A DNA stretch of 64,000 nucleotides from assembly GCA_001606155.1 (NCBI GenBank), contig LODT01000004.1, forward strand, positions 1,240,001 through 1,304,000, written 5' to 3'. This stretch comes from Tieghemostelium lacteum (taxonomy: Eukaryota > Evosea > Eumycetozoa > Dictyosteliales > Raperosteliaceae). Of this stretch, positions 26,312 through 63,102 are shown piece by piece. The notes under the pieces were generated by a model. It saw only the letters and a program-made list of their open reading frames with translations, searched no databases and was not told the DNA's origin. How positions within the stretch are numbered: position 1 is the first letter of the stretch; the number at the start of each line of letters is the position of its first letter. The translations under genes and the position numbers were made by a program.

Positions 26312-27448
26312 TTAATGGTGAATCTGGATGAATTGCTGTTGTTGTTGTTGTTGTTGCTGTTGTTGTTCTTTAATTTGTTGTAATTTTTGTAAATTTAATA
26401 CAAAATTGATACTGGTCTTTGAGTCCATGTTACTAGTAGGTAAAGCAGAGACTACTGAATCAGTGGTATTATAATATAGTTCATTTTGCAAAACATCACA
26501 AAGCAGATCCAAATTACTACTACTAGTTGTTGTAGAGGTAGATGATTTTAAAATTGGTGTTATATTAGCCGATGATGAAGATGGTTTTGGTGTTTGTTGT
26601 TGTTGTTGTTGTTGTGGCTGTTGTGAAACTTCCGGAACTAATGAGAATTGTTGTAAAGATGAAAAAGATGTTGAGGTTGAAGAGCATGTTGATGTTGGTA
26701 ATGAAAAGTTTAAAATTTGCTCTGATGATGATGAATTGGATCTCAATAGTTGTGGTGGTGGAGGTAAATTTGGTGATGGTGAACTTTGTAAAATCGATTG
26801 TGTTGGTGTTGGTGATAAACTAAATGGACTACTTGGTAATGTTGGTGTATTTGGTGAGTTTGGTATATAATGTAAAGATGGACTAGATGGTGGTGATGAT
26901 TGAAGTTGGTGTCCTCTAGGTGAGGATTTGGTGCTATTAATAGCACTAGTTGTACTAGTGCTAGTTGATTGATTATTATTGTTATTGTTATTGTTATGTA
27001 ATTGAATTGATTGTTGAATTTGTTGTTGTTGTTGAGATTGTTGAAATTGTAAAATTAATTGATTTTGTTTATCTAATTGGATTTGTAATTGTTGAATGAC
27101 ATTTAGATGATTTTGTGGAATTTGAATTTCTTTTTCAAGCACATCAATTTTGAATTTTGCTTGACGGAGTTCATTCTCTAGAAGAGTGATTCGACATCTT
27201 TGGTAATCAATTTCTTGTTCCAGTGTACCAATCTCTGAGACTTGTCTGATAGATTCCTGTTTCTTTCTCTTTCTGTACTCTGCGTTCTGTTGTCTTATTT
27301 TCTCTCTATTCTCTGGTTTACTTCTATACTTTTTCATGTAGAGTCTACTTTGTTCCCTGTGTTCGTCCTGGGTCAGTAACTCTTCATTTTGTTGTTGATA
27401 TACATTAGGCATCACTTGACTTGAACTATGGTTGATAGTATCAAACAT
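26312..27448 (-). CDS. bZIP-like transcription factor with Gln/Ser-rich tail
   Basis: A single exon of 378 residues. Residues 47-66 form a basic segment (NREKIRQQNAEYRKRKKQES) matching the bZIP N-x(7)-R/K pattern of dictyostelid factors (EYRKRKK). A heptad helix follows to about residue 135 (IGTLEQEID, ITLLENELRQAKFKIDVLE). The remainder is low-complexity Gln, Asn, Ser and Pro with several homopolymer runs and no other domain. It is probably a nuclear DNA-binding dimer. The basic region departs from the canonical NxxAAxxCR, so DNA specificity cannot be inferred. Confidence 0.7.
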   Translation of the reverse strand: MFDTINHSSSQVMPNVYQQQNEELLTQDEHREQSRLYMKKYRSKPENREKIRQQNAEYRKRKKQESIRQVSEIGTLEQEIDYQRCRITLLENELRQAKFKIDVLEKEIQIPQNHLNVIQQLQIQLDKQNQLILQFQQSQQQQQIQQSIQLHNNNNNNNNQSTSTSTTSAINSTKSSPRGHQLQSSPPSSPSLHYIPNSPNTPTLPSSPFSLSPTPTQSILQSSPSPNLPPPPQLLRSNSSSSEQILNFSLPTSTCSSTSTSFSSLQQFSLVPEVSQQPQQQQQQQTPKPSSSSANITPILKSSTSTTTSSSNLDLLCDVLQNELYYNTTDSVVSALPTSNMDSKTSINFVLNLQKLQQIKEQQQQQQQQQQQFIQIHH

Positions 27449-28219: not shown

Positions 28220-29545
28220 TTAGTTGAGTTTTAATTTCTTTGATTTCTCTTTTAGAAACTCTGCTTCTTGGTCACCAACCCATTTGTCAATGGCTAACCA
28301 TTGGTTGTTAAGCCAATCTACACGTTCTGCTTTGGTTTTGGGGATATCTTTGTATTTGACTTGAGTGAATTTGATCTTTACAATTCTGTTACAGAGTTCA
28401 CCTTTCATCATTTGTGCAAAGTTACTTGAGGCCTCTAAACCATAGTGAGAGCAAAATATGACATCACCACATGGATTGGCATCTAACATTGCCAAGAAAC
28501 CTCCTACTCTTGGTAAAAGAGTGTGTTTTAGTTTGGATGCCATATCAAAGGATTTGGTATCATTCTTTTTCTTGAAACTCTCCAAAACCTTTTCTCTCTT
28601 GCCTTTAGAGAAACGGGTACCTTCTGGCCAAATACAAGTAACATCGTTACCTTTTGGTTTAAAGTCTGTTACCAATGCCTTTACAGCTTCCATTTCAACA
28701 TCCATACCTTCTGTTCCTGCATCTCTAAACAAGAAGAAGTTTGGTGTTCTAGATCCTGAGATATCAAGACCTGGATCCCATAACAATTCCTTTTTAACAA
28801 TATATCTCATATGGAAAAAGTATGAAAATATTCCTCTACACATATAGACAATTATAACATTAGTACTAAACATTTTCTCGAGAGTTTTATACACTACTTA
28901 TACATACTGAGGTACTAAGGTATCTGCAAAACTAGCATGTCTTAAGAATACCAATTTTGGATTGATACCTAATGCCAATGCAAGTTTCTTTTTGATATCA
29001 TGGTTAAACATTGCTTTGAAACCGTTTTCACCTTCCAATTCGACTTCTACTTGAAGTCCCATTGCTTTGGTTGACCATCCAAATAACATTGTACCACCCC
29101 ACCAATCTTGGTACCAGTAAGCCCAACGTTGGAATCTTGAACCATCACGATCAAAGTCAATTACCAATGAGACCATATAGACAACCCAAATGATAAATGA
29201 ACACACCATTGCAATGATTTCAATTAGTAGATAAACTTCAAAGAAAGACAGTACTCTTACATAATTAAGACCTCCTCTTTTACTGTACATCATCATATCG
29301 AATCCCAATGCAACAATTGCCAATGCTGGGAATAAAAGTGATAGTAATACAAATACTATTGTTATCATTGTCATACTAATAGCTCTTCTGTACCATTTCT
29401 CAGCCCACAATGCAAGTGGATTGGTATAAGTACTAGAATATCTACCGAAATTGTGTAGATATCTTTTTTGTTTTGGTCTCACACTATTAGCACCATTGGC
29501 AGTCCCGCTGCCACTGGCCACATTAGTTGTGGAATTTTCAACCAT
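28220..29545 (-). CDS. PlsC-type acyltransferase, membrane-bound
   Basis: Two exons, 29545-28908 and 28865-28220, give about 427 residues. The N-terminal third has two to three membrane helices (MITIVFVLLSLLFPALAIVA; YLLIEIIAMVCSFIIWVVYM). The catalytic HX4D motif is RHASFAD and the glycerol-phosphate-binding motif is WPEGTRFSKGKR. RYIVKKELLWDPGLDISG matches related acyltransferases (RYVLKRELLWDP). The family transfers acyl chains to lysophospholipids, probably at the endoplasmic reticulum. Read straight through, the frame meets a TAA at 28898-28900. A 42-base GTATGT...TTTAG intron (28907-28866) keeps phase and restores the family's spacing between the two motifs, so I treat it as an intron. 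A 5'-UTR intron just upstream is possible (CAG/GTAGGT near 29630). Confidence 0.75.
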
Positions 29546-29819: not shown

Positions 29820-32800
29820 ATGAATATAGATGAACCTTTACAACAACAGAATGAACAACAAAATGTAGACACAACACTTAATAATTTAAATATAAAGTTA
29901 TGTGAAATACCATTGAAATCTTTTAGTGGAAATAGTCCAATTTATAAGGAGTTTACTATTCCTTCTTCCTCTTATTATTCAAATTCTAGAGAAACACAAG
30001 AGGAACCATATTTCAAATCAGGTGGATACAGTTACAAACAAAATAAGAATAGATATATACTATGGAGAATCAATGGAAGTTCTCTAGAGTTATCAGAGTA
30101 TCAATTAACTCAAACTCTAACTGAGAATTCAATTAGATTAAATTTCCAAAATACACTTATAAAGTCCTCTGAAATTGGGTTCTTTGAAACTTCACAATAT
30201 CTAGTAGTTTCATTGATCACATCCAATAAAACATTTTATAGATTCCTATTTCCACATCCAAATGAAAATGTACTTGTATGTAGACTTGATAGATAGGGAT
30301 ACATTCATAACTTTAATTTCTAATTTTATAAATTTTAATACAGAAAGTTGGAATTAAAAGAAAGAATGATAGCGATTCATTAAAATCAATATTTAGTAGT
30401 ATTTCACTGTCAGATTTGGATAATAGTTATTCAAAGATTAGAAATATAGTACCAGATCAATTTACAATCACTTCTATTAGATTCTGGCAGGGTAATTATA
30501 TGGCAATTGGATCAACAGATTCAGGTACCTATTGGATAGAGTTAAGTGATTTTAGATGTAGTGGTGAACTATCTTGTAGACAGAGATCAGAGGTATCAAA
30601 ATCCAGTTTCTTTTCAAGTTTTTTTAAATCTAAACATGAACAGGTTATAGATTTACAAATTAGTAACAGTCAGGCACTGGATGCTAATAACTATCTTTTA
30701 TTTATTCTCACTGGTGATTGCCATTTGAAGATTCTGTCAAGTCGTGACAGAACTCAATATAGGGATTTGACTTTGGATTTTGAGTCTTGGAAAGGACATT
30801 CAGTGACACTCGAACAGGTTAGAGATTGTAAGATGAAAGTCAAGACATTGGGTGACAATCACTACCTATTTGTATTCTATATAGAACTGGTCGATGAATC
30901 TATATTCTCATTTTATACTCTAAATGACCCAACAGGTGCCTCTAATGATTTTAGTTGGCAATTAGAGAAACTGTCATTTAGTAAGCAGGTACATCTAACT
31001 GATTTTCAGTTACATAATAATCAGTTACATACATTATGGAATAATAGTGAGAGCGAGGATTTCAAAGAGACTGGAAATCAATTGTCTTACAAGTACCTTA
31101 ATTGGACATTATCAGATCAGGATAATATGGAAATGAATCAGTTTTATGAGGCTTTTATGAGTCCACCTCTTATTAGATCTCTGGTAGCTACGCCATTGGA
31201 GGAAGAAGAGATTAAAGATTACTTTCTAGAGAGACTTTTCCAGAGATCACAGTTTACTGGAAATTCAATTGTAGAGGCTCTGAGGATCTACAAGACTAAT
31301 TTCAACTATGACCCTGATTTGAGTTTGGAAGTTCAGACTTTGGACAGTCTAAATGATAAGATATCAAATATCATTCAATCTAACCCAGGTTCAAATGCAT
31401 CGGCTATTCGTCAGGGTGAATGGGAGGAGTTCTACTCATTATGTGTTAGAAATCAACTTGAAGAACTACAAGGTACTGGTATATTCATTCACACTGATCA
31501 AGAAGTAAACTCAAATACAACCAATAACAACTCTTTAATCTTTTTGATCAAAAAGAATGAATTATCACTTATGAAACCAACTTCTCTAGAGACTTTATAT
31601 CAAGTTGACGAATTTCATTCCAAAACTGATTTGCATAAGACAATTACCTCACCGGATATCTTGAATATGTTAGATTGTATTGAGCTGATTGCACAGGGGT
31701 ACAATCACAGTGATTTTTCTCCTTTGGAATTAGAGCTATCCACCGAGAAGGTCAGTGAAACTATTCTCAATCAATGTAACTTACTATTACAAAGTCCAGA
31801 TTTTATAAACCGTTTCCAGAGTTCATTTGGAAAGATACACGAACCACTTCATATCGTTGAGAATATTCTCATTAGACTGGAGGCTGAGTTCATTCCAAAG
31901 AATGGTAGTAGTATACAGATTCGTAAACAAATGGGAAATAGTTCTCCACCTGGTCAAGGTGGACCAGAGTATTGGTCAGGTGACACATTTATTGATATAC
32001 TTTCAAGTTCATTTGAAGCTAATATCAAATCAAAATTCCAAAATCTCATTGCCATCACATTGATTCTACAATGTTGTACATCATTACAATCTACATTGAT
32101 CAATGTACAAATTGATCAGACATTCTTCCATTTGTACAATCAATCATTGACTTTACTAAGTCAGTATTTCTTATTGAATTGGTCAACTACTCAAATATAC
32201 CATCGTGTTATTGATGAGTCTACTCTAACACTAGACGAAATCAATCTAAATAGCCAATCACAGTCTCAGAGTGAAACTATCATCTACCATCTATTAAAGA
32301 TTCACATTAGTCAGTTTTCATCCAATTCCTTAGAGACACCAATTCACGAACTAATCAACTTGAATATCAGTAAGTTACTTCTAGTCTTATGCTCCCATAA
32401 GAACCTCTTCCCACTCGCTACATTCCTAGTAGAACAACACCAATTCACACAGTTACAGCATCTTCTAGCAATGGTCTTACACACTCAAAATGGAGTACCT
32501 TCCATGGAACTAGCAAAATACCATTACCTCCATGGAATATGTCAAGTTAACTTTGGTGACTATGACCAAGCTTACAAGTCACTTTTAAGAGGTGTAGAAG
32601 GTCTCAATCAACCAGATCTCATTAGAATATGTTCTCTATCCAGTGAATCATTAGTTGAAAGACTCTTTACAGAGCATCCAATAGACCAAGAAAACAGTAG
32701 TGAATCATATCTCACTCTACAATACATCCTAAAGTCTATTAAACTATTTGAACAAAAACAACAGAATGACTATATAATCCAGCTATCTATTCATGCAATA

Positions 32801-34438
32801 GACTTTATCTATGAGAAGATTGAGGATATTAAACCTAAAGAACTAGTTCAGACACGTTTGGAACAATTAAGTTCCTTACTCTTTAAATGCGCTTTGGAAT
32901 CTGGAAAATACCAATACGCATTCGAGGCTGCTAATATGAATCCTACAACTACCGGTTCTGAAGAGTATCTAAAGAAACTAGTTATTCATCTCAGTCAGAA
33001 TAACAAAATTCAAGAACTTTATACTCTACCTTTTAAACCTTACTTTGTAGAAAGACACTTAATCACTCTCTCTAAATCACAAGATATCTATGTGAAACCT
33101 GACTACTACATGATCCTCTATGGATTCTATATACAAAGAGCCAATTACCAAGGTGCTGCCTCAGTCCTCTACGAAAAAGCCACTAGAATTCTAACTGAAT
33201 CACACAGTGTAATTAATAATCACATTGACTCTGATATGGTTGTAAGCGGTCGTTTAGAACTACTTTCTCTTACTATAGCATCTTTGAAACTCTTGGACCC
33301 ATCCAATAGATATCTTCAATTGGACAATAGCACTTCATCATCAACATCTAAAGAAAAGAGAAAGTTAAATTCAGAGTTTGATCAGATGTCTTTGAATTCA
33401 GATTCAAAGAAATCAAATTACAAAGCCATTAGAATCATTTGGATAACTGAGATTCAGAGAGAATACATTTATCTTCTTTCTTATAGATACCTTTTACAAG
33501 TGGATCCTAAGACTAGCGACACTATAACTGAAGGTCAACTCCTAGAAGGTCTCATTCAAAACTCACTTTATGACCGTGCTTTAACTCTTGGAATTGCATT
33601 TGACTTTGATTTATCAGCAATCTTTGAATCTATGGCACTGAAATGTCTACAACTTAGACAACCATCAACATTGGTTAACATTAACAATATAGGTTTTGAA
33701 TGTTCTGATTATCTTCATCTTTCAGATCCTTCCACCATTGCATGGGAGGTTCTAAAGAACTATCTAGAGAGATACGATCAACCTGAAACCGATTTAGATT
33801 GTCTGAGTATCTCTAAACTCCTATCACTCACCAAAAGCAACAACACACCAGATCACAGATACAAAGTCTATGGTATAGTTAGTAAAGGTACACTTGAGGA
33901 CCTAAACACTGGTATCAAATTCCAAATCCATGATGAGTCTAATTGTCTCCTAACTGTCATCTCTATGAAAAAAGTTCCATTGTTCTTTGAAGAGGGTTCA
34001 AAACTTGTAGTTGAAGGTACACTGGATAAGAACCAGTTCATTGCAAGTAAGGTTCTATGTAAGAGAGGTCAAAGTAGATACCATGAGGCTGTTGCTGATA
34101 GAATATTGTCTAGTGGTAGTGCAAATTCATTACCAAATTGGTTAGCTCAATGGTTCCTAAATGGACGTGCTGATGTTTTGTTTAAACTATATTTCAAGCA
34201 TTCACGTATTTTAGAGGCTTTTGGTGTACTTCAAGATCTATTTGCTACCGCAAAGACATATACTAGCACAAATAGACCTGTTCCTTTTAACATTCCTTAC
34301 AATATCATTGATCAATTTTTACAAGAAACACAAGAGATCCTTCAAAACTCTATGAGCCAAGATGAAAAACTAAAACGTTCTTATAACACAACAATGGATC
34401 TTATCAACTCACATTTAAAATCTATTATTAATAAATAA
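29820..34438 (+). CDS. nup160: Nucleoporin Nup160 (Nup107-160 complex) with an extra inserted domain
   Basis: Exon 1 is 29820-30275 and exon 2 is 30344-34438 (68-base intron, GTATGT and TACAG), about 1516 residues; human NUP160 is about 1436. NRYILWRINGSSLELSEY and IRLNFQN match human NRFIHWRTSGDTLELMEE and IRLKFQN. The beta-propeller half is followed by the helical half, where YEAFMSPPL/FLERLFQRSQFTGN, YYMILYGFYIQRANYQGAASV and LPNWLAQWFLNGRADVLFKL align with the human protein. It is a scaffold of the nuclear pore Y complex. Between SKLLS and LPNWLA lies an insertion of about 95 residues, absent from the human protein, described as a separate feature. The gene is head-to-head with the acyltransferase, 274 bases apart. 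Confidence 0.88.
33858..34107 (+). other. CcmE-like OB-fold domain inserted in Nup160
   Basis: Residues about 1323-1406 of the Nup160 protein read YKVYGIVSKGTLEDL, then FQIHD, then LFFEEGSKLVVEGTLDKNQF, IASKVLCK and YHEAVADRI. This follows the order and spacing of the bacterial/organellar haem chaperone CcmE: GGxVxxGS, FTIxD, LFREGQGVVVEGxL, A.EVLAKHDExY, PPEVA. The haem-attaching His of the AKHDENY motif is missing (CKRGQSRY here), while the following Tyr is kept. So the fold may be conserved without covalent haem binding. This is my own motif comparison, not a database hit. Confidence 0.6.
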
Positions 34439-34588: not shown

Positions 34589-35647
34589 ATGATACACTGT
34601 AATATATGTTGGAAAGAGTTATTACACAATGATACTTGTTATATAACAATTTGTTATCATGTATTTTGTGAGCAATGTGCAATTTCAACTTTTAATAATG
34701 ATAGGATATGTACAGTTTGTGAATCATCTTTAATCAATAAAGGATCAATATTTTGCATTACTATTGATAATTCTGATGATAAATGTGTAATATTTGTAGT
34801 CTATATAGTAATTTAAGATATCTAGATATTAATTAAAATCAAGTATCATTTATTTGGGTTGGACCCAAAAGATATTTTAGATATTACAGTTAAAGTTATT
34901 ACATTTTGGAATTATCAAAATAAGTTATTTAATGAAAATATAGTGCAACAATCCAAAGATTATCAAAATCAATGTAATGATATGAAATCCCAATTTTCAG
35001 ATATTTGTAACCAATATGAATCCAAGATTGATAGTTTGAGAAAACAAATTGAAACACTAAAAAAAGAATCTGAGTCTGATAAAAGAGAAATTGTTGATCT
35101 CTCTGATAAATATGCTGAGAAAACTAGACAAAAGAGAGTATTAGAGGAATTATATGAAAATGTTAAAAGCAAGCTTGATAATGGTAGTGAAATAAGTTTA
35201 AAGAATAATCAATTTAACAACCAAAGTACAATATCTAATAGTAATACATTAAAATTACCAACAAAACAACAAAGTAGTACACCATCATCTATAACCAACA
35301 ATAACAAACAAAATATGTTAAAATTAAATAATACATCAGATAAACCCGTATCTAAATCTCCAATTCCTCCACAAACATTATTGAGTAAATTTAGTCAATC
35401 CACAAATAGGCTGTCTAATAGTGGTACTAATAATTTCAATACTATACCCTATTTGAATCCAGTGACACCAATCAACAATAATTCAAAATTAAATCATTCA
35501 TATTCATCTTCAAAATCATTCCCATCACCACAGGCCTTTCCAGGAAAAAATGTTGATAGATTCTCTTATATTCAAAAGAATTCCACTCCACCAATGAATC
35601 ACAAAATTCTCTCTACTCCATTACTTTTGAATAAAATTAATAAATAG
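34589..35647 (+). CDS. HEI10/CCNB1IP1-type RING E3 (meiotic crossover factor)
   Basis: Exon 1, 34589-34786, and exon 2, 34844-35647, join in phase across a 57-base intron (GTAATA and TCAAG) to give 333 residues. The human protein has 277 and plant HEI10 about 300-330. The N-terminus is a RING: CNICWKEL, CYHVFCEQC and CTVCESSL, matching CCNB1IP1 CNYRKCRI, CSHIFCDQH and CPACNSTL. GLDPKDILDITVKVITFW matches human GLRPEIVLDISSRALAFW, and a coiled coil follows (LSDKYAEKTRQKRVLEELYE against ISEKLMERNRQYQKLQGLYD). The tail is Ser/Asn-rich. HEI10/Zip3-family proteins stabilise recombination intermediates and mark crossovers in meiosis. Without the intron the RING would stop at 34816 and the coiled coil would lack a start codon. 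Confidence 0.78.
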
Positions 35648-35686: not shown

Positions 35687-36184
35687 TTATTGTGGTGCAG
35701 AATTTATAACACAATGTATTCTAGAACCAATCTGTAGACTAGAATTTGATACAGTTCTATACAAGTCCATAATTTTACCAGCAAAAACAAATCTACATTT
35801 GTCTAAAGGTATCTTTGATCTCTCTGAGAATTGTTTTTTAATATACATTACGGTATGACCATAAGAGCAATCAATCTTCATTGGTGAACCTTGGTTATCA
35901 CCAACTGTTGATATAAATACATGAGTGTTTATAGGTAGTGCAGCCCAAGTATTTTCTAGCACATTCAAATGATCATTATTAACTATAGAGCATTGATAAA
36001 GTGTCTTTTGCAAATCTGTAATATTTATATCATCTTTAAATATTGAGTTTTCATTTCTGTTCACTTTTATATAATCCGATAATAGTTTCGCAACTGTTAT
36101 ATTATTTTTAACAGTTACATCAAAAAACTCTTTTCTTGATAATTGTATATGTAATGTAATATCTCTAATTTCATTTAGATCCAT
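35687..36184 (-). CDS. Double ubiquitin-like-domain protein 1
   Basis: The start at 36184 (MDLNEIRDITLHIQ) matches the start of the neighbouring paralogue (MDPNEIKDIKLYIQ). An upstream ATG at 36232 would add 16 residues. The length is 165 residues. The C-terminal half is ubiquitin-like: MKIDCSYGHTVMYIKKQFSE, then CRFVFAGKIMDLYRTVSNSS. The N-terminal half (ITLHIQLSRKEFFDVTVK) looks like a second, more divergent copy of the fold. There is no terminal GlyGly, so it is unlikely to be conjugated; it is more likely an adaptor. It lies 165 bases or more from the same-strand copy at 36398-36931. Confidence 0.6.
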   Translation of the reverse strand: MDLNEIRDITLHIQLSRKEFFDVTVKNNITVAKLLSDYIKVNRNENSIFKDDINITDLQKTLYQCSIVNNDHLNVLENTWAALPINTHVFISTVGDNQGSPMKIDCSYGHTVMYIKKQFSERSKIPLDKCRFVFAGKIMDLYRTVSNSSLQIGSRIHCVINSAPQ

Positions 36185-36397
36185 ATCGGGATAGAAATAA
36201 CTATTATATATATTACTAATAAATGAAAACATTCAATGAAACATTTTTTATAAAAAGGTGTTACATTAAAATGAAAAAAATAGAAATAATTTAGATAACT
36301 TGAATAAATAGGTAATGAAAAAAATATGCCACATTCCACATTACTATTAAAATATTTTATTTTCAAAAAATAATAATAGTACAAAAGAGACACCTCC

Positions 36398-36931
36398 TTA
36401 TTGAGAGTTAGTTGTTACAGCATTTGGATTAAAGCAGGTAATTGTAGTACCTTTTTGAATAGCTGAATTGGATAATGTACGATAAGGGTCAAGAATTTTA
36501 CCAGCAAATACCAACCTGATGTTATTTGTGGGTATTTGGGTGATCTCTGAGAATTTTTTAATGATATAGTTTACAGTATGACCAACTGCACAATCAATCT
36601 TAATAGGTTCTTGATTATCATTATGTAATTTAATGAATACATGTGATGTTGGTTCTAATCCAGACAAGTTATATCTATTGGGTAAGAAATTTAAATGATC
36701 GTTATCAATTATTGATAGTTCTTGTAATGTCTTGTGTGTATCTAGTATTCTTGTATCATCTTTAAATGGAACATAATCCAATTCTTTAAATCCTCTTGAT
36801 ACTAATAAAGGTTTTATGTGATTTTCCATAAAACTATCAAAAGTGATATTGTTTTTAACTGTTAAATCAGAATAATATTTGCAATCTGTTTGTATATAAA
36901 GTTTTATATCTTTAATTTCATTTGGGTCCAT
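36398..36931 (-). CDS. Double ubiquitin-like-domain protein 2
   Basis: A paralogue of the gene at 35687, 177 residues. Its C-terminal domain reads IKIDCAVGHTVNYIIKKFSE and then IRLVFAGKILDPYRTLSNSA. RLVFAGKxLDPxRTLxxxxI is the ubiquitin LIFAGKQLEDGRTLSDYNI block. The N-terminal half repeats the pattern weakly. There is no terminal diglycine. The two genes are in tandem on the minus strand and clearly arose by duplication. Function is unknown. Confidence 0.65.
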   Translation of the reverse strand: MDPNEIKDIKLYIQTDCKYYSDLTVKNNITFDSFMENHIKPLLVSRGFKELDYVPFKDDTRILDTHKTLQELSIIDNDHLNFLPNRYNLSGLEPTSHVFIKLHNDNQEPIKIDCAVGHTVNYIIKKFSEITQIPTNNIRLVFAGKILDPYRTLSNSAIQKGTTITCFNPNAVTTNSQ

Positions 36932-38321: not shown

Positions 38322-40776
38322 ATGAACATTTATACAAATAGAGATTTTAGATATTTTCTTCATAATAAAGTATTGTGGGGAAATATAAAGAAATTTATTG
38401 GAACTGATGAATCAATACCAGAGAGATACATAAATAGTTTAACATGGATATCAAAAAACAAACATTGGAATCTATTGGAATACAAGTTGAAGAGAAATGA
38501 AAGATTGGAAGATATTATTGGTTTCACTATGGATTATCTTTGGGATCTATTTGATTACACTAATGGCGATTTGGATATTATAAAAACACTTATTCAGAGA
38601 TACCATATATCATTTGATAGATCACAATTAGAGCATATCAACACTGCACCTTTTACACAATGGACCACTGAAAAATTCAATCAATTCAAGTTCAAGATTG
38701 CTGATTTTTTAGAATATCTAGTTAAAGAAACTCATATTAATATATATGGACGTGCATTTAGATTTCTATCCATGTTATCAGTTGAGACTGATTGCGAATT
38801 GATTGATTCTGTGTTTCAGATACATTCCAAAAAGGGTGTATTTTCAAATATCGACACACTATTTGCTCTAAAGAATAGTAAATTGATGGTTTATATTCTT
38901 TCAAAATATAAAGATTGTTTTTATACTTTAGTTAAAAGAGATGTAAATTTAATTGACAGAGATTTCACTGCACCTCATATTCAGTGGTTTAAGTGGTCTG
39001 TTAGATATAACATGATACCTGTCACTAAATACTACTTGGAGACATATGAATGGGCTAGAAACTCTATAGATATTGTATTGATATGCACTGCAACCAGTGA
39101 AGAAATGTTTGATTTGTTAATGGGTATATACAAGTCACTTCATCTACTCTCAAATCTCTCAGATACCGAAATTCTCATTGAAAGGTTGACATCAAATATT
39201 CTAGAGCTTTGCCTTGAACACGGTGATGCTATATACCATCCTAAGAAAATGGAGGCTTTCCTAGTCGTCATTCAAAAATCAATTGAAAATAATGATCAAT
39301 TAGTTATAGATATGCTAAAGTATAGAAATGTACCTATACCATTACTTCTGAAACTGGATTCGCAGATTAACCATACCGTCAGATTGGACAAATACAATCT
39401 CAATGATAGGATAAACTTTGATACCCTTTCTGAAATCTATCCAAAACATTTTCCAAAACGAGTTTCAATGGTAAACTCAATTAGGTTTAGAGAAGCTGGT
39501 TTAGTTAGATTTTTAATTTCAGTTAGAAAATCAAAGTTTAGTGGGTATATAACATTATGTGATAGACAGTCTAGAGGGTATATTACAGCTGCTTGTAGAG
39601 GAAAGAATAATGAAATTACATCAATGGTATTAGAGGCACTTATACCTTGTGATTTTACTTTTCTTTTGAAAGAGTGGAAGTTTGGACATGTTCAATATCT
39701 TTTAGAAAATGGATTCAAAAAAGAAGCTGACTTTTTGGATTTAAATAATAAGAAAGACTACAAGAAACACATTCTTAGAGAATCTATAAAACATGGTAAT
39801 TTTAGAATATTTAAGATGATCTATTACAATTTAAGTAATTTGGTAGAGAATTCATTAGATTTAGCAATGAATCCAAAGATTATTGATTTCTTATTGTCTA
39901 ATGGACATAAAGATAGCAAGAATTTGGTACAATATTGTATAGGTAGTAAAAACCCTTATCTATTTGATATTGTAAAACATCATCTACCAGATCAAGTTAA
40001 ACAATTCTTGAATGATACTAGTATATTTATTATTCATGAGTTTTATAAAGAGGATCCTAAAAGATCATACCAATGCCCATCACTATTGGACACTTACAAA
40101 CTATATAAAGAATATGGTGCATCTTCAAATGATGATGAAAAGATACTCTTATTGACATCAAAACTAAAAGACTATCAATTATTAGAGTACTTAACAAGCT
40201 GTGTAGAAGGTCCTAAATTGAATCATATCAAAATCATAGATAATCTGTTAGCACAAGTTTCTTTGTCTCCCAATTCTAATGATCTTTATAAAAACAAACC
40301 ATTAGACACATTTAGATATGTAAATGTACTGTTACGACCAATCATTGGTAGATCTGATCATACTGATACTCTAATTAAAATATCAATATATGATATTCTA
40401 AAGAACTATCAGTTTACTAAATTCTATTGTAAGTATTTCCCCGAACTTGTTTGTAAGTTTTGGAATGACTGTAAATCAATATCAAATTATATACATTCTA
40501 ATGACATAAGACCACTGGTATTGATTTTGTCAACTGTCTATCCAAATGGTAGATGGATATCCGACAGTGAGCTATCAAAGAGAATTGAAGAGGTAATATT
40601 AAACAGTGAACTGATATCTCATTTTCATGGATATCTAACACAAGTTTTATTAAATTTGAAAACTATTCAAAATACCCAATGGCCAACTCAGGTACGTTCA
40701 GAAAATCAACAATTAGATTTCTTTCTTAGAATTCAAATAATTTATTTTACAGGTTCCCAATAAACACTGTTTTTAA
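38322..40776 (+). CDS. Ankyrin-like family A protein
   Basis: The main exon is 38322-40691, followed by a 61-base intron (GTACGT and TTACAG) and a seven-codon last exon to 40776; unspliced the frame ends at 40763. The protein has about 797 residues. The signature RDFRYFLHNKVLWGNIKKFI and then PERYINSLTWI is the best match to the three minus-strand copies at the right end of the window. Degenerate ankyrin-like helices follow (FGHVQYLLENGF, YPNGRWISDSEL near the end). The function is unknown. Confidence 0.75.
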
Positions 40777-43080: not shown

Positions 43081-44769
43081 TTATTTTAAATATTTCCAAA
43101 CATTTTTTAGTTGCTTGTAGATATATTTTGGTTTTATGTTTGTATTTTCTAAGTGTAAATCATTTTCAATGTATTTTAATACTAATAGTGATGGATGAAT
43201 AGAGTACTGAGATTGAGAGTAGTATTGTCTAACTTGTGATTTCAGTTGTTTAATTTGCTGTTTAGTCAATGAAAAATTAATATTATTAATCTCTATAGCT
43301 CTAATATGAGTTTTTGAGAATATTTTTCTGAGTAATTCTGTTAATTCTTCAAATGATAAATGTGTGAGTAAACAAATATCTCTCACTTTGGAGGTATCTA
43401 AGAATAGGTTAAGATGATCATTTTCAATATCTTCAGAGTCGTGGTATTTTACAGTATCCCTTACATAAAAGTTACCACTCTCTGGTGTGAATTTAGATTT
43501 AATTTGACCAATCAGTGTAACTAATTTCAATTGAGAGCTCTCAATTGCGTTACAAAGGTTATGGATATAGTTATATGATTCTGGTGTCCTATAAATTTTG
43601 ATAATTGATCCCATTTTAATAAATTGAATTTGACTATTCGATAGTAGTTTAATGATTCCATTGATACCATAGCTATCCAATCTAGCTATATTTAATTTAG
43701 TGACATTTCTGTGATAGGATAGAACAGATTTTGCAATACCTTCAGAGAGCTCTGAACAGTTAATAACTCTGAGATTGGACTGCACACTCCATTTCTTTGC
43801 CAGATTAAAATCAGAGGTGATTTTGAAATTTTGTAGAGCTGATGGGGTATTGATACTGTGTATTGTACCATCTGATGTATTGATTCTAACATCCAATGAC
43901 AGATATTCTATAGGTGTAGTGGTTATCAATTGATATAGGTTATCTGTATTTTCTCTATAGAATATACATTTCACTTTCAAACTTTTTAGAGTTTTATGAC
44001 CGACAAATGCTTTCAAAATAGTGTCACCTGTGTAGTTATAGAGAATCTTTATAGCAAATTGTTCGATTAGTGGTAGATTCTTTGATAGTTGGTAAAAGAA
44101 ATCATCTTGATTGTCTTTTCTGTCTATAACAGAAACTTGTAATAGTAGTACTTTTAGATGACTACCAATGAGATCACCTCCAAAGCAATCACCTGTAAAA
44201 TACATATTCTCAACTTGGTATCTTTCAATTATATCATTTACAGGTTGACCAGCAATCGTAATTTCATTGGCATTTAAAATGCATAGTTTTTTTATACCCT
44301 CACGAAAGTGTGGTATATGCAGGGTTATGTAATCAATGATTTGTTGATAATTTTTAGAGTTATTATCATAACTAGCAACAGTTAATGTATCTGTCATAAA
44401 ATTTCTATCTAATTTATCTAGATCTATATCAACGAGGGGTAATGTTGGGTTAAATGCTGTATTCTGATCTATAGCCTTAAAGAATCTTTGAATAATCAAC
44501 GGATCCATTTGAGATGTAAAATAAAGACCTTTTATGGACTTAAATTTACAACCTCTTTCTAGACATTTTAATAAAAATAAACAGTGATGTTTCTTTTGAG
44601 TTGTGGTTAAATTACCATATTGAACTAATGGTACTACAAATGTTGACCATTCTTTTGAAACAAGACTAAGTTTTTTAATTAAATAGTAATAGAAATGAAT
44701 TGAATCATTGCCATCTTTATCAATGTAATCTTCTATAATCCTTTTAATTAATAACCTTGAAAGAGTCAT
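43081..44769 (-). CDS. F-box-like/LRR-type dictyostelid family protein
   Basis: A single exon of 562 residues. The start MTLSRLLIKRIIEDYID, followed by LIKKLSLVSKEWSTFVVPLV, is the F-box-like entry common in expanded dictyostelid families. Irregular leucine-rich segments follow (FAIKILYNYTG, LKSLKVKC, IEYLSLDVRINTS), consistent with an LRR solenoid. It may be an SCF substrate adaptor, but partner binding cannot be read from the sequence. Its stop lies 26 bases from that of the CECR2-like gene; the two are convergent. Confidence 0.65.
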   Translation of the reverse strand: MTLSRLLIKRIIEDYIDKDGNDSIHFYYYLIKKLSLVSKEWSTFVVPLVQYGNLTTTQKKHHCLFLLKCLERGCKFKSIKGLYFTSQMDPLIIQRFFKAIDQNTAFNPTLPLVDIDLDKLDRNFMTDTLTVASYDNNSKNYQQIIDYITLHIPHFREGIKKLCILNANEITIAGQPVNDIIERYQVENMYFTGDCFGGDLIGSHLKVLLLQVSVIDRKDNQDDFFYQLSKNLPLIEQFAIKILYNYTGDTILKAFVGHKTLKSLKVKCIFYRENTDNLYQLITTTPIEYLSLDVRINTSDGTIHSINTPSALQNFKITSDFNLAKKWSVQSNLRVINCSELSEGIAKSVLSYHRNVTKLNIARLDSYGINGIIKLLSNSQIQFIKMGSIIKIYRTPESYNYIHNLCNAIESSQLKLVTLIGQIKSKFTPESGNFYVRDTVKYHDSEDIENDHLNLFLDTSKVRDICLLTHLSFEELTELLRKIFSKTHIRAIEINNINFSLTKQQIKQLKSQVRQYYSQSQYSIHPSLLVLKYIENDLHLENTNIKPKYIYKQLKNVWKYLK

Positions 44770-58154: not shown

Positions 58155-60587
58155 TTATTCAGTATAATAATATGTATATGATTGAGAATACATATTTCTA
58201 TTTGCTAAATTGAATTTCATTGATGGAGGAATCTGAGAATAGATTCTTAAGACTATCTCAAGATCACCGTTATCAGATGATGTGGTATTAAATATCATAG
58301 AGAGTGCCTTTTGATTGGTTTTCCACTGGTCACCAAATATAGCTGTGATTAGTATCTCAACTATTCTGTAGTCATGTCCAGTTTGCATTTTGGAATATAA
58401 CAACTGTGAGATTTTTTTGTCATTGAAGAAATGGATAATGACTGGTTTGAATTTTGCAATGAGGTAAGAAGTTAAAGGATAAGAGTTGGTCAATTCAAGC
58501 AAAACCCCATCTAAAAACGAATCGTTTGGTATATTGTTCTCATATGGTTTTAATAAGAGTTTTGCCATATAATTTGAATCGTATTCAACCTGAGAGTACG
58601 AATAAGACCATCTATTACTAAAAAATAGTCCAATGAGAGTAGATACTGGTTGCTTACATTTGAGTTTGGGTCCTGATGGATCATTAGTTAGGTAGAGGTA
58701 TCCTTGATAATCCTTGTTGATGATGGTATATCGTATGTCATCTTCATTAGGAAGTCTCCCAAATTCCACATATAACTTCCAGAGTGGTAGAAAACTCTTG
58801 GAATGGTATGAATGTAGCTTTAACCCAAAACCTCTAAATACTGATCCATTGCCTAAAATATAAGCTTTTGTTTCTTGTTTATAATATCTCTTTAGTAGAT
58901 CATATTTCCAAGGATCACAACTAACCAAACAATTGAAAATAAAAGTATTGGTAGAGGTAGGTTTAACATCATTCTCCAACAGAAACTCTATAATCTTAGT
59001 TTTTGGAGAGATATCCAGGGCAATCTCTTTACCTTTCAGTCCCAGCCCACTATTAAAAATTAATTTAAAAACTGATAAATTTGCATATTTTGCAGCTTCA
59101 ATTAGAATGTGTTTAGGATATTGGTCTAGGTTATCACCATCTATGAAATCCTTCTCTGTCTTGTACCCATAGTCCAATAGATACTGAACTTTTGAGAATT
59201 TCATTTGTTTTAGTAAAAATGAAAAATCAAGATTAGGTGGAAGTGCATCAAATACACAGGAAGTAGCTTCACTATCCCGATGTTTACATGCCAATACTAT
59301 ATAGGATCGAATTTTCAATGGATCAGTTTCAATATACTTATTAGTTTTCAATTTTTCAGAGATTATAAATTGTAACATATCAACAATCCCTATATTAATA
59401 TATCTCTTGATACCACATCTTTTTGGGTACATTGGAGTCCCATAGAATTCTTTTAACTCCTCCAATGTCAATCTTGGAAACATTGATCTCTTTAACTTAA
59501 ACTTCTCACCAACTGCATGATATACCTCTTTCAATGCTGATATTCTACAATAGATATTGGCAACACTACACCAAGACAGAACCAATTTCTTTTCTCTATC
59601 TGATAAAGCTGATAATACTCTCCTCAAAATCTCTTTCTTTTTTTCAAAACCCCATATATCATAAAATGTTTTCAAACCCTCTTTAATATCATTTACATTA
59701 CAATTCTTAGAAACCAAATCAATGTCATCCACATCACTACTAATTTCATTTGCTTTTCTATAGATTGAAATACACTTTTCAAATAGATCACTAGTTGTAG
59801 TCATTAAAATGGTTTTCACAGTAACCATACCTTTTACAATATCCCAATGTCTATCAATATAATACTGCACCAATCCTAAATCAGCACTGGCTATTGATTG
59901 ATTAAAGCCCTCCTTAATGTACCCACTAAAGTCTCTATAAATTGTTTTATCAGCAGTCGAAGCATACACATAAAAGTTCTTTTCATATCTTTCATTAATA
60001 TACTTGTGAATCTCTGATTTACCTTTAGTTGTCAGTTTGAAAGGTAACATTGTTCTACCAATTTTTAAGTAGTCTCCTATAATTCTATCCACCATCTCTT
60101 TATCTTCGGTCACTGATAAGCCACTTAGAAAATTGAATATAGTCTCTGGAAGTATATAATTATGAATAAACTGAAACAATTGGTATAACTTTGGTTTCAG
60201 TTCTTGAAATTTTTCTTTTTTCCAATAGGTATAGGGTTGATTATACATTAAATCACTTCTAGTGAACTCTATTTCATATCTCTTGAATAGCAGTTTAATA
60301 GTATCTAAATCACCATTGTTTGCATAAAACCATGCAAAGAGATCTTTGAATGAAAAACCACTGATATCACCCAACTCTTCATCTCTCTTTAACTTGTATT
60401 CCAATAGACTCCAATGACAATTCTTTGCAATCCATAATAAACTATTTATATATCTCTCAGGTACTGATCTATCAACACCAATAAACTTTTTTACATATCC
60501 CCACAATACTTTACTATGAAGTATAAATCTAAAATCTATATTTGTCATATATAAACCAGTTACTGATTTATTCTCTTTATTTTCCAT
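58155..60587 (-). CDS. Ankyrin-like family A protein
   Basis: A single exon of 810 residues. The family signature IDFRFILHSKVLWGYVKKFI begins at residue 16, so an alternative start at 60548 (MTNIDFRF) would fit the relatives better. Further family blocks are PERYINSLLWIAKNCHW, MKFSKVQYLLDYGY, and FGDQWKTNQKAL near the end. It is transcribed toward the family B gene; the two stops are about 75 bases apart. The function is unknown. Confidence 0.75.
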   Translation of the reverse strand: MENKENKSVTGLYMTNIDFRFILHSKVLWGYVKKFIGVDRSVPERYINSLLWIAKNCHWSLLEYKLKRDEELGDISGFSFKDLFAWFYANNGDLDTIKLLFKRYEIEFTRSDLMYNQPYTYWKKEKFQELKPKLYQLFQFIHNYILPETIFNFLSGLSVTEDKEMVDRIIGDYLKIGRTMLPFKLTTKGKSEIHKYINERYEKNFYVYASTADKTIYRDFSGYIKEGFNQSIASADLGLVQYYIDRHWDIVKGMVTVKTILMTTTSDLFEKCISIYRKANEISSDVDDIDLVSKNCNVNDIKEGLKTFYDIWGFEKKKEILRRVLSALSDREKKLVLSWCSVANIYCRISALKEVYHAVGEKFKLKRSMFPRLTLEELKEFYGTPMYPKRCGIKRYINIGIVDMLQFIISEKLKTNKYIETDPLKIRSYIVLACKHRDSEATSCVFDALPPNLDFSFLLKQMKFSKVQYLLDYGYKTEKDFIDGDNLDQYPKHILIEAAKYANLSVFKLIFNSGLGLKGKEIALDISPKTKIIEFLLENDVKPTSTNTFIFNCLVSCDPWKYDLLKRYYKQETKAYILGNGSVFRGFGLKLHSYHSKSFLPLWKLYVEFGRLPNEDDIRYTIINKDYQGYLYLTNDPSGPKLKCKQPVSTLIGLFFSNRWSYSYSQVEYDSNYMAKLLLKPYENNIPNDSFLDGVLLELTNSYPLTSYLIAKFKPVIIHFFNDKKISQLLYSKMQTGHDYRIVEILITAIFGDQWKTNQKALSMIFNTTSSDNGDLEIVLRIYSQIPPSMKFNLANRNMYSQSYTYYYTE

Positions 60588-60702: not shown

Positions 60703-63102
60703 TTATTTTAACCTTTGGAAATAAACAACATTTGTATTTATAGATACGATGTGTTCTTTGATTGGTGGAGTAATTGGAATTTTGTATTGAAATTCATTTG
60801 TAAGAAGAGGGATAATTTGTGTACTCCAATCATAATATTGAGTTAGTGGTTGAATTTGACTGACAATAGTTTCATCAGACATCCAATCATTACCATACAA
60901 TATCTTAAAGATTCGATTTACAACTCTAAAATCATTGGAACTGGATATCAATTTGGAAATATCTGGAAAATAAATTTCTAAATAAGATTTCAATGAACTT
61001 TTAAAGTTATTGGAAATGTAAATGGCGTACTGATTGGATTTCAATACATTGCTTTCTAAAAATATCATGGTTTGGATAGGTATATGAGCCTCTTTTTTAA
61101 GAATGAGTTTTGTCAAGTTGAATGCATTACACAAGTTGTGTCCATTTAATGGTTGTAGTAGATTTGCTAGAGGTCTAGTACGTTTTAATTTAGGACCACG
61201 TGGATCCTCTACAAGGTATCTATACCCTTCATAATCAAAATCCTCTATACAATCCATTAAGAGGTTATCTGGAAGTGGTATTCCATATTCCATACAAATT
61301 TCAAATACAGGTTGTCTAGTTGTATAATACATCTTTTTATCATTAGCTTGATAATGGTGATAGTACTTTCTAGATGACATATTTCCTAGTTCATTCACCA
61401 GATATTCCTTGAGTTTAGATGATGAGTGTTTCTGTATAACTTCTAAGAGATAAGGATCTACAGTTTTAGATCTTAATATTGAATCTACATTGAAATTTAA
61501 ACCATTATTTCCAATATAATCTAAAATCTTTGGATTTTGAGTTAACAAACTGTAGTCAATTTGTTTATCTTTCTCCATACCTCCAAAATAGTTAAAGATC
61601 ATCTGAAATAATGTAACATGACCAAATTTTGCAGAATTCTCTAGCAAATCACGAACTCTATATCCTTTATAGTTTGGATCTATTAAATCATTAAATGATT
61701 TAAATCCATTAGAAATTAGATAGGATGTGTGTCTTAGGTTACCTTGTTTGAGAAGGAATGTGAAATCTATATCAGATCTCAACATTGACAATACCAATGT
61801 TGTAATGCTATTATTCTTTCTTCTACAAGCAGCAACAATATAACCTTGAGATTTCTTTATATTCTCAGTTAAGTATTTACTGTTATTCTTTCTCAGTTTG
61901 TCTCTTATCATTTTTTCAACTACAATCTCAACTTCATACATTATAAAATTCAACAGAGATACTCTTCTAGGCCAGTGTTTACCACCATAGAACATTTCAA
62001 CTTCTTCTTTAGTCAATGTATAGATTTGATGTTTGGCAATTACAAAGTCTTTTCCAAAAGACTCATAAATTTGCTTATTGGCTCCTACTGAAAACTTATG
62101 ACGGTTCCTAATATATGTATAAGTAAATACTGATTGTTTCTCTTGTGGATTTTGTAATTGACCAATGAGTTTAGAGAATACATGAAATCTTTTACCCTTT
62201 ACTGGACTCGAAAAGACTTTAATACATTCTTTAATTGATATATCTTTAGATATCAAATCAATATCATTAGAATAGTGTTGAGATGATATTGGATCTTTCT
62301 CTCGGAGTTTTTGTGAGAGTAAATCAAATACTTGGTCATTTGCAGAACTCATGATTAACTTTACATCAATTAGTGGTTCAACCAGATTAGAATGTTCATT
62401 GAGATAATATAGAATAAATTCATCATTTCCCATGATAACACTTTGTTTAAATATATAATGATGATATTTATCTAAATCAGAAAATAAACAGTCATCTTTA
62501 GTAGTACTATACATAAAGAATGAATTGGGGTGTTGATTATGAAGATACTTGAACAATTTTAGGTTTTTCTCTTTAATACATATATATGGTAAATTTGATT
62601 TACCTATACTATAGTAACCATCTTTTAACAAATTATCAATAATAGACCATTCATCAATGATTGCCATTTCACAAATGAAATAGTTTAAAGGTACACTGAT
62701 ATCGACTTCCAATGACTTTTGAAGATATTTAAAAAGAGATATAATCTTGAATTTCATTTGTTGTAATCTCTCTCTTGGGTATTTCTTGAATGTGTCAGGT
62801 AGAAATATATCATATATATTAATAGAATATTCTTCTAAAAGTCTCTGAAGTAACTCTATATCACCATCAAGATAATCAAAGAAATTGAAAACTGATGTCA
62901 TTGTAAGATATTCCAAAGACAATAATCTTTCATTTCTTCTTAACTTGTATGCCAATAGATTCCAATGTTTATGTTGTACAATCCACGTTAAACTATTTAT
63001 AAATCTCTCTGGAATTGATTCACCTTTTGCTATAAACTTCTTTATATGAGTCCACAATACTTTATTGTGAAGTAAATATCTAAAATCTATTTCTGCCACC
63101 AT
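60703..63102 (-). CDS. Ankyrin-like family A protein, tandem copy 1
   Basis: A single exon of 799 residues starting MVAEIDFRYLLHNKVLWTHI. It is closely related to the partial gene at 63164-64000 along its last 275 residues: CxEDxDYEGYRYLVEDPRGP, ILYGNDWMSD and WSxxIIPLLTNxF are shared or nearly so. The two genes are in the same orientation, 61 bases apart, and are a recent tandem duplication by appearance. The function is unknown. Confidence 0.78.
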   Translation of the reverse strand: MVAEIDFRYLLHNKVLWTHIKKFIAKGESIPERFINSLTWIVQHKHWNLLAYKLRRNERLLSLEYLTMTSVFNFFDYLDGDIELLQRLLEEYSINIYDIFLPDTFKKYPRERLQQMKFKIISLFKYLQKSLEVDISVPLNYFICEMAIIDEWSIIDNLLKDGYYSIGKSNLPYICIKEKNLKLFKYLHNQHPNSFFMYSTTKDDCLFSDLDKYHHYIFKQSVIMGNDEFILYYLNEHSNLVEPLIDVKLIMSSANDQVFDLLSQKLREKDPISSQHYSNDIDLISKDISIKECIKVFSSPVKGKRFHVFSKLIGQLQNPQEKQSVFTYTYIRNRHKFSVGANKQIYESFGKDFVIAKHQIYTLTKEEVEMFYGGKHWPRRVSLLNFIMYEVEIVVEKMIRDKLRKNNSKYLTENIKKSQGYIVAACRRKNNSITTLVLSMLRSDIDFTFLLKQGNLRHTSYLISNGFKSFNDLIDPNYKGYRVRDLLENSAKFGHVTLFQMIFNYFGGMEKDKQIDYSLLTQNPKILDYIGNNGLNFNVDSILRSKTVDPYLLEVIQKHSSSKLKEYLVNELGNMSSRKYYHHYQANDKKMYYTTRQPVFEICMEYGIPLPDNLLMDCIEDFDYEGYRYLVEDPRGPKLKRTRPLANLLQPLNGHNLCNAFNLTKLILKKEAHIPIQTMIFLESNVLKSNQYAIYISNNFKSSLKSYLEIYFPDISKLISSSNDFRVVNRIFKILYGNDWMSDETIVSQIQPLTQYYDWSTQIIPLLTNEFQYKIPITPPIKEHIVSINTNVVYFQRLK

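Follow-up and report, generated by a model that had tools for sequence, protein, structure and literature searches.

The window, a stretch of 64,000 nucleotides from contig LODT01000004.1 of Tieghemostelium lacteum, holds a gene for the nucleoporin Nup160, within the C-terminal helices of which a block resembling the haem chaperone CcmE was seen in an earlier note. Such a locus raises three questions: whether the block is related to CcmE, where it begins and ends within Nup160, and what it may do at the nuclear pore. The inferred gene model is a two-exon Nup160 gene at 29820-34438 (+), whose exons 1 and 2, when joined, form one frame of 1516 aa without an internal stop. Residue numbers in this study refer to the large open frame starting at 30416; the full-protein number is obtained by adding 176. 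The gene and the parts of its C-terminal region are as follows.

29820..30275, + strand: Nup160 exon 1, 152 codons, an open frame from ATG with a GTATGT donor at 30276, inferred from sequence
30276..30343, + strand: inferred phase-0 intron of 68 bases, GTATGT...ACAG, GC 0.221
30344..34438, + strand: Nup160 exon 2, with the middle and C-terminal TPR of NUP160/120
33683..33778, + strand: last Nup160 stretch ahead of the insert, residues 1090-1121, aligned to 5a9q as far as its residue 1300
33779..33853, + strand: linker from the Nup160 helices to the barrel, residues 1122-1146, without a counterpart in 5a9q
33854..34063, + strand: CcmE-type domain, inferred OB barrel with the haem arm lost, residues 1147-1216, PF03100 E 1.1e-10
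34064..34108, + strand: junction RGQSRYHEAVADRIL, residues 1217-1231, occupying the place of the CcmE haem arm; Nup160 from RYHE on
34109..34435, + strand: final C-terminal Nup160 helices beyond the insert, PF23347, residues 1216-1316

Membership in NUP160/120 is given by Pfam matches to both the middle TPR domain (PF23354, E 1e-35, residues 664-932) and the C-terminal TPR domain (PF23347, E 1.2e-13, best stretch 1028-1138). The large open frame also matches the Nup160 chains 9hcj_R0 (E 2.6e-147) and 5a9q (E 1e-28) from the PDB. Nup160 is single in the assembly (23.3 Mb, 43 contigs), where the sole match at E ≤ 1 is the gene itself. The insert block is in frame within one unbroken exon of 4.1 kb.

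The surroundings of the gene were scanned as well. Six of nine neighbouring open frames (262-813 aa) gave no Pfam match at E ≤ 0.001, namely those at 34859-35647 and 38322-40763 on the + strand and at 26312-27448, 43081-44769, 58155-60587 and 60703-63102 on the − strand. At 35687-36931 (−), two adjoining open frames, 181 and 177 aa long, both encode a single ubiquitin/SUMO-like domain (PF00240, PF11976) towards the C-terminus, and the pair looks like a tandem duplication. Two other adjoining open frames, at 28220-29545 (−), may be a single gene with an intron; the downstream one matches the acyltransferase family PF01553 with 20.4 bits, below the cut-off of 23.

The relationship to CcmE was assessed with published and newly built profiles. 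PF03100 (CcmE) covers residues 1140-1222, with E 1.1e-9 and 38.9 bits when the whole frame is scanned, and E 1.1e-10 and 42.2 bits for the block alone, in both cases over the curated cut-off of 24.6. No other Pfam family matched the block at E ≤ 10. Seven CcmE models from NCBIfam match it too (best 5.8e-10), all far below their equivalog cut-offs, and the block is therefore a CcmE relative rather than an orthologue by the NCBI standard.

CcmE sequences for comparison were sampled from Pseudomonadota only, eukaryotic CcmE being absent from the sample. Eighty loci were kept from a scan with the peptides AKHDENY and PDLFREGQ, a choice that favours the His motif; to these were added the 30 loci of one class that scored highest with PF03100, together with 30 loci from the reverse search described below. 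Our own CcmE HMM was built on 29 of the 80 loci, those with the literal motifs and enough sequence ahead of them, whereas 25 of the 80 entered the hhalign alignment and 36 of the 80 the alignment used for the identity range. For the tree and the column counts, 87 of 141 extracted CcmE sequences were taken, comprising all those with locus numbers of at least 88 and every third of the remainder.

With our own HMM, the block of the window scores 29.5 bits and that of 9hcj 26.1 bits, compared with a best score of 11.9 bits among 10,000 shuffles (5,000 per block; 8,512 scored). A profile made from these two blocks was searched against 177,635 distinct PDB sequences. At E ≤ 10 there were five hits, one being 9hcj and the others four distinct CcmE sequences at 3e-6 to 4.9e-4; among the Nup160 chains, only 9hcj matched. 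Aligned by hhalign to 25 bacterial CcmE, the same profile gave a probability of 97.6% with E 4.7e-12. On this evidence from sequence, a CcmE-derived domain within the C-terminal helices of Nup160 is confirmed, as the earlier note had proposed.

In bacteria, at E ≤ 0.01, the two-block profile matched 54 of the 398 Pseudomonadota genomes searched. From the 58 match rows, 30 loci were retrieved, each of which contains CcmE by our own HMM, with E of 1.6e-28 or better. When four CcmE-holding genomes were searched, CcmE was returned in one of them (3.6e-6); in the other three it was not, and a single weak match fell elsewhere (0.753). The genome that gave 3.6e-6 had no match in the 398-genome search. 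Since known CcmE genomes were missed, the genome counts for this profile are lower bounds. PF03100 itself matched 146 of 190 genomes of one class (Alphaproteobacteria by the title of a locus), and because the two-block profile returned CcmE in so few genomes by comparison, the Nup160 form must be considered remote from CcmE. The identity of the Nup160 block to the 36 aligned CcmE sequences is 22-33%.

The second Nup160 carrying the insert, 9hcj_R0 (1791 aa), aligns across the entire region, insert included. Its block alone matches PF03100 with E 1.7e-10 and 41.6 bits, the sole other Pfam family at E ≤ 10 being Ig-like (0.13). The source of 9hcj is probably Dictyostelium discoideum, a reading with which its runs of poly-N agree. 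The two proteins were compared via the alignment output. Ahead of the insert 19 of 34 positions are identical (residues 1090-1124), in the linker 7 of 22 (residues 1125-1146, with seven gap columns), in the barrel 24 of 70, at the junction 9 of 12 over RGQSRYHEAVAD, and after the insert 27 of 49 (residues 1229-1278). The insert of 9hcj is at the equivalent place and is likewise without the haem arm; it differs in a longer linker and in the turn after FF, which is three residues longer (NDTQSG for EEG).

The boundaries were set by comparison with Nup160 chains that we take to be vertebrate (5a9q, 6lk8, 7vci and 7vop), the first of them presumably human. Matching C-terminal helices flank the insert on both sides, most clearly in 5a9q (..LERY / LYHHCVINKLLSHG..LPNWL), but these chains give no match to the barrel profile at E ≤ 10. 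Residue 1300 of 5a9q aligns with 1121 of the window protein and residue 1304 with 1220, so that three residues (1301-1303) stand against about 98; human Nup160 does run continuously across the insertion point, as had been claimed. The second 5a9q stretch is weak alone (i-Evalue 2.4 and E 0.048) and is supported by PF23347, which matches residues 1216-1316 with E 4.2e-8 when the C-terminal piece is scanned separately. The junction was taken from 5a9q because the two stretches overlap in 6lk8.

At the junction 5a9q has LYHHCVINKLL, and from RYHE onward the window protein is Nup160, given that NLYHHCVINKLLSHG..LPNWL of 5a9q aligns with SRYHEAVADRILSSGSANSLPNWL. The CcmE-like part lies at about 33854-34063; the span given earlier, 33858..34107, reaches at its end into Nup160 sequence. 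Three of the four CcmE motifs named with that span hold, and the fourth, YHEAVAD, had to be rejected as a CcmE motif, since it aligns with Nup160 of 5a9q. An ungapped alignment does put VAD of the window under VAD/VAE of CcmE; given the longer Nup160 match, we regard this overlap as fortuitous.

Which properties of CcmE have been kept can be read from the conserved columns. From homology to solved CcmE structures and from the core pattern, the domain is predicted to fold as a five-stranded OB barrel like that of CcmE (PF03100; PDB 1sr3, 1j6q/1lm0, 2kct, 8ce8), which it resembles in sequence between strand 1 and the terminal VLxK. Among 27 barrel columns with at least 85% conservation in the 87 CcmE sequences, 15 are kept in the window protein, 16 in 9hcj and 12 in both. 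Twenty-three barrel columns carry a hydrophobic residue in at least 90% of the CcmE sequences; each Nup160 has such a residue at 21 of them, a level reached in none of 20,000 shuffles for either protein; by comparison, 4 of 27 columns that are polar in CcmE are hydrophobic in each Nup160.

In CcmE the covalent haem residue is the His (or Cys) of an HxxxY/CxxxY motif (available text of PMC9084895 and PMC10457321), and a membrane helix at the N-terminus precedes the barrel (available text of PMC10457321). In contrast to CcmE, the Nup160 block has neither the haem His and Tyr nor a membrane helix directly ahead, where the sequence is that of the Nup160 C-terminal TPR; it is not a separate gene either, but sits in a nucleoporin. 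None of the seven conserved columns of the haem arm is kept in either protein. The haem His column, occupied by His in 87/87 CcmE sequences of a sample partly found by that motif, has Arg in the window protein, in agreement with the loss of the haem-linking His reported before, and Gln in 9hcj; the surrounding D, E, Y, M, P and E columns are lost too. The column of the axial Tyr (His +4) has Arg in both Nup160s, and the Tyr one place later is Nup160's own. With 21 of 23 core columns against 0 of 7 haem-arm columns, the two proteins have retained the core pattern and lost the known haem site. Because the residues of the haem arm are missing, this site cannot, as judged from the sequences, carry haem as it does in CcmE.

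The reading that we prefer, at a probability of roughly 0.6, is that a CcmE-family OB barrel was inserted in a common ancestor and kept as a haem-free docking or stiffening module in Nup160. In known Y-complexes, the tail of Nup160 is located at the hub, together with Nup85 and Nup96. The insertion would have occurred in an ancestor shared by T. lacteum and the source of 9hcj, to judge from these two sequences, and its site would be a loop between two C-terminal Nup160 helices. The barrel would have been retained as a folded module without haem, and its role may be to dock proteins or to stiffen the Nup160 tail, touching neighbouring nucleoporins rather than carrying haem.

The barrel may instead be a passenger, a fold that does no harm in the tolerant loop where it inserted and that has no function itself. 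We consider this rather unlikely: the barrel is less conserved than its flanks (24/70 identical positions against 19/34 and 27/49) and its functional haem arm is lost, but both of these diverged proteins retain the core pattern and 12 of the 27 barrel columns conserved in CcmE, and the junction to Nup160 is identical at 9 of 12 positions. The lower conservation of the barrel would fit weak constraint as well as it would fit a surface module. OB folds often bind nucleic acid, and the earlier note had suggested binding of RNA or DNA at the pore. The block of the window is indeed basic (pI 9.0, K+R 11, D+E 8), but that of 9hcj is neutral (K+R 8, D+E 8, pI 6.9), and the searches return CcmE, with no nucleic-acid OB family at E ≤ 10 in Pfam. 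As the charge is not conserved, this suggestion finds no support, and such a function appears improbable.

A domain that still senses haem or redox state via new ligands would be more doubtful again. Both Nup160s have a Cys at block position 72, two residues before the haem His, where 87/87 CcmE sequences have Ala, and a Tyr is present at block position 79; archaeal CcmE holds haem via a Cys at the His position (available text of PMC9084895). All seven conserved haem-arm columns have changed, however, and the Tyr is also found in Nup160 of 5a9q, which has no barrel; we judge a new site of this kind quite improbable from the sequences compared. An accidental or convergent likeness to OB folds at large, instead of a relationship to CcmE, has very little probability. 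The domain is short and its identity to the 36 bacterial CcmE sequences low (22-33%), but two proteins match PF03100 independently, the reciprocal search retrieves CcmE, and no other OB family was found to match better. Chance resemblance was rejected on the shuffle controls, the PDB profile search and the core-column test.

Finally, the block could be an unspliced intron, a mis-assembly or contamination, an explanation to which we give practically no weight. Two acceptor-like strings are present in the block. No splice donor of the types searched exists in 33680-34110, though, the frame is open, and the GC content of the block (0.365) is exon-like, with 0.343 in exon 2 ahead of it and 0.221 in the inferred intron; the block was therefore rejected as an intron. 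An assembly artefact was rejected since the independent 9hcj sequence carries an equivalent block.

In cytochrome c maturation System I, CcmE acts together with CcmABCD and CcmFH, and the assembly was searched for several of the families concerned. Apart from the Nup160 block, PF03100 has no match there at E ≤ 10. HCCS, the alternative haem lyase, is present; its gene consists of two exon-like pieces at C40:642535-643148, covering profile positions 80-178 and 198-298. The CcmH family has no match in the assembly. Neither do the CcmB and CcmC/F families, an absence that is weak evidence because COX1 is unmatched too and the mitochondrial genome seems to be missing. In plants CcmB and CcmC/F are usually mitochondrial and CCME is usually nucleus-encoded, while amoebozoans use System III and dictyostelids have a single HCCS (available text of PMC10879542, 2024). 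With System III in use, a single HCCS and a nuclear CCME in plants, a freed nuclear CcmE is a plausible donor.

In the tree (89 rows, 79 of 112 columns) the Nup160 pair forms a clade with SH-aLRT 99 on a long branch. The donor could not be read from it: 44 of 85 inner branches are open, and the pair is unplaced among Pseudomonadota CcmE. A freed nuclear CcmE and transfer from a bacterium are not told apart by this tree. A possible donor is the nuclear CcmE gene that would have served an ancestral mitochondrial System I and become redundant once HCCS took over. Put more boldly, and only tentatively, the Nup160 barrel could be the last piece of mitochondrial System I surviving in this lineage: HCCS would have replaced System I, the nucleus-encoded CcmE would have been left without a job, and the barrel would have been captured by the pore scaffold, where it might now provide a lineage-specific Y-complex contact.

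In the full-text literature covered, which leaves out most subscription papers, no report of a CcmE domain in Nup160 was found, although automatic domain annotation may exist, and no paper found names 9HCJ. Papers retrieved for Nup160 with an OB fold concern, by their titles, only telomeres and lymphoma cell lines. As for papers on the Dictyostelium pore, Nup160 is not mentioned in the available text of PMC11816917 and is mentioned once, in an unrelated context, in that of PMC8834467; CcmE features were looked for in the available text of PMC6204919 and not found. Viral contigs were covered by pattern searches for this Nup160, one of which gave no match and another 124 matches, none of them a relative.

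If the preferred reading is true, this Nup160 would be a clear case of a part of cytochrome assembly rebuilt as nuclear pore architecture, and it bears on the diversification of the Y-complex between eukaryotes. Maps of the D. discoideum pore exist, according to the available text of a review (PMC13242641), and if 9hcj does come from that species, a laboratory strain would allow a direct test of what removal of the barrel does. How System III came to replace System I is debated (available text of PMC10879542), and the barrel in Nup160 may be a fossil of that change.
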